Positions 16,158 through 16,261 of a stretch of 64,000 bases of DNA are shown in pieces (the stretch's first letter is position 1; each line of letters starts with the position of its first letter). The DNA lies in assembly GCA_019454145.1 (NCBI GenBank), contig CP075366.1, forward strand, positions 1,343,564 through 1,407,563, read 5' to 3'. A program made the translations under genes and the position numbers. This stretch comes from Fimbriimonadaceae bacterium (GTDB taxonomy: Bacteria; Armatimonadota; Fimbriimonadia; Fimbriimonadales; Fimbriimonadaceae). The notes beneath the pieces are model-generated. The model did no database searches. It was not told the DNA's origin and saw nothing but the letters and a program-made list of their open reading frames with translations.

Positions 16158-16261
16158 TGTCGAGATAAGGCGAACGGTGCGAACCGGCGGATCCTCGGTG
16201 TGAAAACACGCAGGCTCCGCCGGTTCCATTTTGAGAACCAGCCGCCTGCAAAAGGAAAAAT
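16158..16261 (+). ncRNA. Structured 5' leader of purA, candidate cis-regulatory RNA
   Basis: An 11-bp perfect stem pairs GAACCGGCGGA (16181-16191) with TCCGCCGGTTC (16216-16226). It encloses CCT/AGG (16193-16195/16212-16214) and GTGT/ACAC capped by a GAAA tetraloop (16198-16209). A second, incompatible fold is available: GCAGGC (16210-16215) with GCCTGC (16244-16249), plus GGTTC (16222-16226) with GAACC (16235-16239). It would close directly beside the AAAAGG ribosome site at 16250-16255. Mutually exclusive stems next to the start codon are the hallmark of a riboswitch or attenuator. I do not recognise the motif as a known purine element. Confidence 0.55.

Follow-up and report, generated by a model that had tools for sequence, protein, structure and literature searches.

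We identified a conserved RNA element at the start of the purA leader in the family Fimbriimonadaceae (Armatimonadota), and an RNA switch in this leader is well supported by sequence comparison. The element, a candidate aptamer, was found in a window of 64,000 nt (the whole stretch of DNA that was analyzed), where it occupies positions 16159–16199. The conserved element, its pairing, a competing terminator-like hairpin (henceforth referred to as T) and the link to purA were all established by comparing relatives. We consider it probable that the leader is a ligand-ON riboswitch, in which a ligand would stabilize the element, block T and allow purA expression. The original prediction of a switch-like structured leader upstream of purA is strongly supported by these comparisons and survived a check of the purA leaders of relatives for missing stems or a lack of covariation. 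It overlooked the most conserved part of the leader, 16159–16199.

The source genome (2.76 Mb) belongs to the Fimbriimonadaceae, and its closest named relatives are Fimbriimonadaceae metagenome-assembled genomes (MAGs). The purA gene (16262–17551, with its ATG at 16262) encodes a 429 aa adenylosuccinate synthetase that scores above the NCBIfam cut-offs for TIGR00184 and NF002223, which bears out the earlier call of a purine-synthesis gene. Its product catalyzes the first step that is specific to AMP in purine synthesis. The upstream neighbor is an aldo/keto reductase-like gene (15158–16099), and the 162-nt gap between the two genes contains the promoter and the leader. purA and all promoter and leader features described here are on the + strand. 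The likely promoter that had been noted upstream was recovered at 16122–16151, with boxes at 16122–16127 (CTAACA) and 16146–16151, an 18-nt spacer and an extended −10 (TGATACAAT); it has 9 of 12 matches, a level with a frequency of about zero in shuffles. The −10 box ends 8 bases 5′ of 16159. Across 54 distinct relatives, the usual place of a −10-like hexamer is 4–8 nt before P1, the stem that begins the element, so P1 is predicted to be at or very near the 5′ end of the transcript. The sequence AAAAGGA at 16250–16256 is the likely ribosome-binding site.

Other genes of the window were also annotated. ribBA (riboflavin/GTP cyclohydrolase, 12512–13711) is 5′ of purA on the same strand, an arrangement seen in many genomes of the family at distances of 113 to ~3500 nt (seven examples were recorded), and the two GTP-linked enzymes form a conserved neighborhood. 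Farther along the + strand, 19126–21289 contains matches to pxpB and pxpA followed by a pxpC-like frame (5-oxoprolinase; pxpC was recognized by eye only), and this run is preceded by a dut gene on the − strand.

The element is ~41 nt long (here GUCGAG-AUAAG-GC-GAA-CGGU-GCGA-ACCG-GC-GGAUC-CUCGGU; covariance-model match 1.3e-9) and was aligned with 59 homologues. It comprises P1, a 5 × 5 internal loop, P1b and P2. In P1, GUCGAG (16159–16164) pairs with CUCGGU (16194–16199), and three of the six pairs show two-sided changes. The P2 hairpin, CGGU-GCGA-ACCG (16175–16186), has such changes in three of its four pairs, and 97% of its alignment cells are paired. In P1 and P2 together, two-sided changes affect six pairs and 25 cells over the 59 aligned copies, compared with 8.3 cells in shuffles, none of which reached this count (0 of 500), and no more than 10 in slid controls (relatedness uncorrected). 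P1b, a G-C and a C-G pair proposed by RNAalifold (16170–16171 with 16187–16188), is invariant in all copies and thus cannot be tested by covariation; the inner pairs of P1 also never vary and are likewise beyond its reach. The internal loop is formed by AUAAG on the 5′ side (16165–16169), whose four named bases (A-n-A-A-G) are invariant in all aligned copies, and GGAUC on the 3′ side (16189–16193), invariant except for GAAUC in three degenerate copies. Immediately beyond the conserved strands identity is near random, except at the −10 box. The leader thus has a conserved, structured 5′ domain with covariation support, as is typical of riboswitches. We also observed that GUUGGG replaces GUUGAG in the P1 strand of one subclade (an A-U to G-U change; six leaders), and some leaders of this subclade have CCGUUG/CAACGG pairing potential around the loop strand.

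The motif is almost fixed in position relative to the −10 box, as would be expected of a DNA operator just 3′ of the start site that is bound by a repressor or an activator. This reading is very improbable given the compensatory changes in P1 and P2, the large insertions between the conserved strands and the covariation of the element with a downstream arm described below. The P2 loop ranges from a few nucleotides to long inserted stems among the copies, and this variation fits an RNA rather than a DNA operator.

The fold that competes with the element is T, an 11-bp stem in which GAACCGGCGGA (16181–16191) pairs with TCCGCCGGTTC (16216–16226, segment C). Two more paired segments, of 3 bp and 4 bp, lie above this stem and carry a GAAA loop (16202–16205), so the 11-bp stem topped by a GAAA tetraloop was described correctly at the outset. 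The 5′ arm of T overlaps the 3′ strand of P2, P1b and part of the internal loop. The leader folds better than all 200 of its dinucleotide shuffles (z −3.6; z −3.4 in a repeat). We compared the pairing of each 5′ arm with its own partner and with arms from other genomes, scoring the variable bases that flank the invariant core. Pairing extended further with the matched than with the swapped partner (z 6.1, 0 of 5000; 44 leaders, relatedness uncorrected), and the stability of the T duplex was above that of shuffled sequences (p 5e-9, relatedness uncorrected). A U-rich stretch, UUCCAUUUU, overlaps and trails T at 16224–16232; it is weak here and stronger in most relatives, and U-richness after T exceeds that of shuffles (p 9e-10 over 54 leaders, relatedness uncorrected). 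A strict terminator scan called no terminator in the leader of this genome, where the U tract is weak. The OFF fold, with T, has a predicted energy of −43.2 kcal/mol here and the forced ON fold, with the element, −37.2 kcal/mol, and the mean gap over the leaders is 10.2. In these models, T is the default fold of the free leader, and the element and T form a mutually exclusive expression platform by computation. In copies with GUUGAG, the 5′ strand of P1 can also pair with CUCAAC just after the loop strand. GUU co-occurs with CUC (23 of 26, compared with 7 of 28 otherwise; Fisher p 2e-6, relatedness uncontrolled), an association suggesting that the OFF state has an additional anti-P1 hairpin.

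Terminator-like and alternative hairpins can exist on their own, and the predicted transcription start is right at P1. An attenuator without a sensor could therefore be imagined, in which the folds set a fixed or kinetics-dependent read-through, for example through NTP-dependent polymerase speed, with no ligand. We regard this as improbable because neither hairpin requires AnAAG or the remainder of the loop, yet these bases stay invariant across a family whose PurA proteins diverge by as much as 40%. AnAAGGC, the 5′ loop strand, is outside T and also outside the downstream hairpin described next, and is nonetheless invariant. This argues that selection acts on the ON fold as such and that this fold is recognized by, or recognizes, something.

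The second fold of the original prediction, hairpin R, is present as well. Its outer 5′ arm, GCAGGC (16210–16215), pairs with 16244–16249 and is kept in G004 through a G-C to G-U change; its inner 5′ arm, GGUUC (16222–16226), pairs with 16235–16239. The 3′ arms, GAACC and GCCUGC (segment D, 16235–16249), end beside the AAAAGGA ribosome site. The proposal that two folds share an arm was correct in its logic and incomplete in its pairing scheme: what chiefly competes with the 11-bp stem is the P1/P2 element, and R forms alongside that element. The regions downstream of the element fold better than shuffled sequences (mean z −1.24, p 1.5e-7 over 54 leaders, relatedness uncorrected), with z −3.2 in this genome alone. 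We rejected a general role of R in unmasking the Shine–Dalgarno (SD) sequence, since the modeled SD accessibility (0.53 in the ON fold versus 0.46 in the OFF fold, p 0.05) was unconvincing. Two lineages have only 17–36 nt between the element and the start codon and have no terminator. There, the 3′ strand of the element has the ribosome site as its predicted partner, CCUGC with GCAGG in G010/G158 and GCGGAUCCUCG with CGAGGAGGCCGC in G032. In these models the element opposes the OFF fold on both platforms, terminator-like in most leaders and at the ribosome site in G010/G158 and G032.

The main rival to a ligand-ON riboswitch is a protein partner. A protein that binds RNA, perhaps PurA or another regulator, could act on the loop and choose between the element and the terminator; a conserved hairpin loop beside a competing terminator would look identical, and a single target gene fits autoregulation. 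We consider such a protein-controlled attenuator rather unlikely. No candidate protein was identified. The 5 × 5 loop with its fixed flanking pairs exceeds many protein sites, and two platforms opposed by one fold are a typical riboswitch trait; both features make a protein less likely.

We searched 291 Armatimonadota genomes with a covariance model built from 25 copies, at a threshold of E 2e-5 or better. The element was detected in 60 of the 85 Fimbriimonadaceae genomes, with one strong copy each (63 genomes if degenerate copies are included), and all 60 elements are directly upstream of purA. The source genome yielded no second copy in the covariance-model search, and none of the 206 genomes from the rest of the phylum had the element (best E 1.4e-3); the weak matches outside the family were scattered and judged to be chance. 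Likewise, the purA leaders of 13 genomes from other families of the same order are without the element. An exact pattern searched in 84,980 species genomes gave 30 matches, mostly labeled as Fimbriimonadaceae or Armatimonadetes MAGs, and every one of the 30 is located 75–144 nt before purA. A less strict pattern gave one match in viral contigs; it was dismissed as chance, being inside a methyltransferase-like frame with no purA nearby.

The three degenerate copies, in G018 (L040), G163 (L135) and G136 (L147), have GAAUC for GGAUC and all precede purA. They are possibly a variant of changed specificity or decaying copies. We observed that these three leaders have a weak P1 together with a perfect, compact terminator hairpin and U tract. 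On a PurA tree rooted by midpoint only, the deepest branches of the family have the element, and four changes are needed to explain where it is present. This pattern fits an element present in the family ancestor and lost about four times, once in a clade of twelve; losses of this number would imply that purA can do without the element. Leaders without it were inspected separately: L023 (G028), L138, L140 and L141 (same genus) and L015 (G033) have a strong hairpin between the promoter and the purA start, which in L023 and L015 is terminator-like with a T run. The hairpin of these genomes is perhaps another control of the purA leader.

We compared the leader with known RNA families. No Rfam 15 family matched it at the gathering score, the ykkC classes for PRPP, ppGpp and guanidine included, and at E values up to 10 it yielded only miRNA and NrrF noise. 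The covariance models RF00167 (purine), RF01750 (ZMP-ZTP) and RF00050 (FMN riboswitch) had no match at the gathering score in the leader or in the 85 family genomes, and their controls were positive. The earlier remark that the layout differs from the known purine riboswitch therefore stands. That riboswitch (RF00167) resembles the purA leader in its link to purine metabolism, and one of its strands is common to aptamer and terminator; it differs in its three-way junction with kissing loops. The PRPP riboswitch (ykkC subtype 2b) responds to its ligand by switching on genes of de novo purine synthesis (PMC7266159, PMC5912903). It is similar in controlling purine synthesis and in its ON response (which we infer for the purA leader), but has the larger ykkC architecture and acts on genes that lead to IMP rather than on purA alone. 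The ZTP riboswitch (pfl, RF01750) senses a small-molecule alarm signal and controls purine and folate pathway genes (PMC7266159); its layout is unlike that of the purA element. In the HMP-PP riboswitch (thiS motif), a small aptamer tightly overlaps a terminator hairpin (PMC6478431). Its aptamer is embedded in the terminator, whereas the 3′ strand of the purA element is the 5′ arm of T and the two are mutually exclusive; the purA leader had no sequence match to it in the Rfam scan. The function of purA would suit a diverged member of a known purine-related class (purine, ZTP, PRPP/ppGpp ykkC, FMN or THF were considered), but we give this little credence, as the window has no Rfam riboswitch match at the gathering score and a 41-nt single-hairpin element lacks those architectures. 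Among the papers searched, we found none on a purA RNA or on Armatimonadota riboswitches, and none naming both Fimbriimonas and a riboswitch. Neither purA nor Armatimonadota is mentioned in the main text of Brewer 2021 (PMC8632094) or in that of Narunsky 2024 (PMC11109978). As far as could be searched, this purA-linked RNA family is undescribed.

For the ligand-ON riboswitch that we favor, we propose the following mechanism. The purA transcript would start with the aptamer-like element, whose 3′ strand is common to T. When the signal is absent, the more stable T would form and transcription would stop early; in lineages without the terminator, the same strand would cover the ribosome site. A ligand bound in the internal loop would hold the element together and block T, and the freed 3′ arm of T could pair downstream as hairpin R, so that purA is expressed. 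Because the element opposes either a terminator or a block of the ribosome site, its formation should raise purA expression. Small-molecule binding, the identity of the ligand and the direction of control are what we infer from these folds.

A purine-pathway metabolite reporting the need or the capacity for AMP synthesis is the probable ligand. purA is the single associated gene and offers no second clue to the ligand; this very narrow association also makes for a short list of ligands. PurA uses IMP, GTP and aspartate, which makes IMP (substrate) or GTP (co-substrate) the leading candidates. IMP or GTP is our first guess, followed by PRPP, ZTP and ppGpp. The internal loop of the in vitro selected FMN aptamer has a G-G-N-U strand opposite an A-n-A-A-G-G strand (consensus AGGNUAU/AGAAGG). 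These strands form a G·G mismatch, a G·U·A triple and an intercalation site, where an A recognizes a uracil-like edge. An edge similar to this one is offered by purines with N1-H and O6, such as IMP and GTP. The purA loop agrees with the consensus only in GGNU and AnAAGG; it is one nucleotide shorter, has a C-G pair in place of A·G and has the opposite strand order, and the aptamer is artificial. We treat this likeness as a lead.

With ~41 nt and one internal loop, the element should be easy to study by probing and crystallography. The comparisons suggest that, within one family, terminator and ribosome-site platforms both rely on a single small aptamer-like element. More speculatively, and with low confidence, the element may represent a new riboswitch class that monitors the purine branch point through IMP or GTP and turns purA on, balancing adenine and guanine nucleotides by RNA alone, via one pocket in the internal loop that is possibly similar to the artificial FMN aptamer. 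Should the element bind IMP or GTP, it would sense the state of the IMP branch point, at which flux is split between AMP and GMP.
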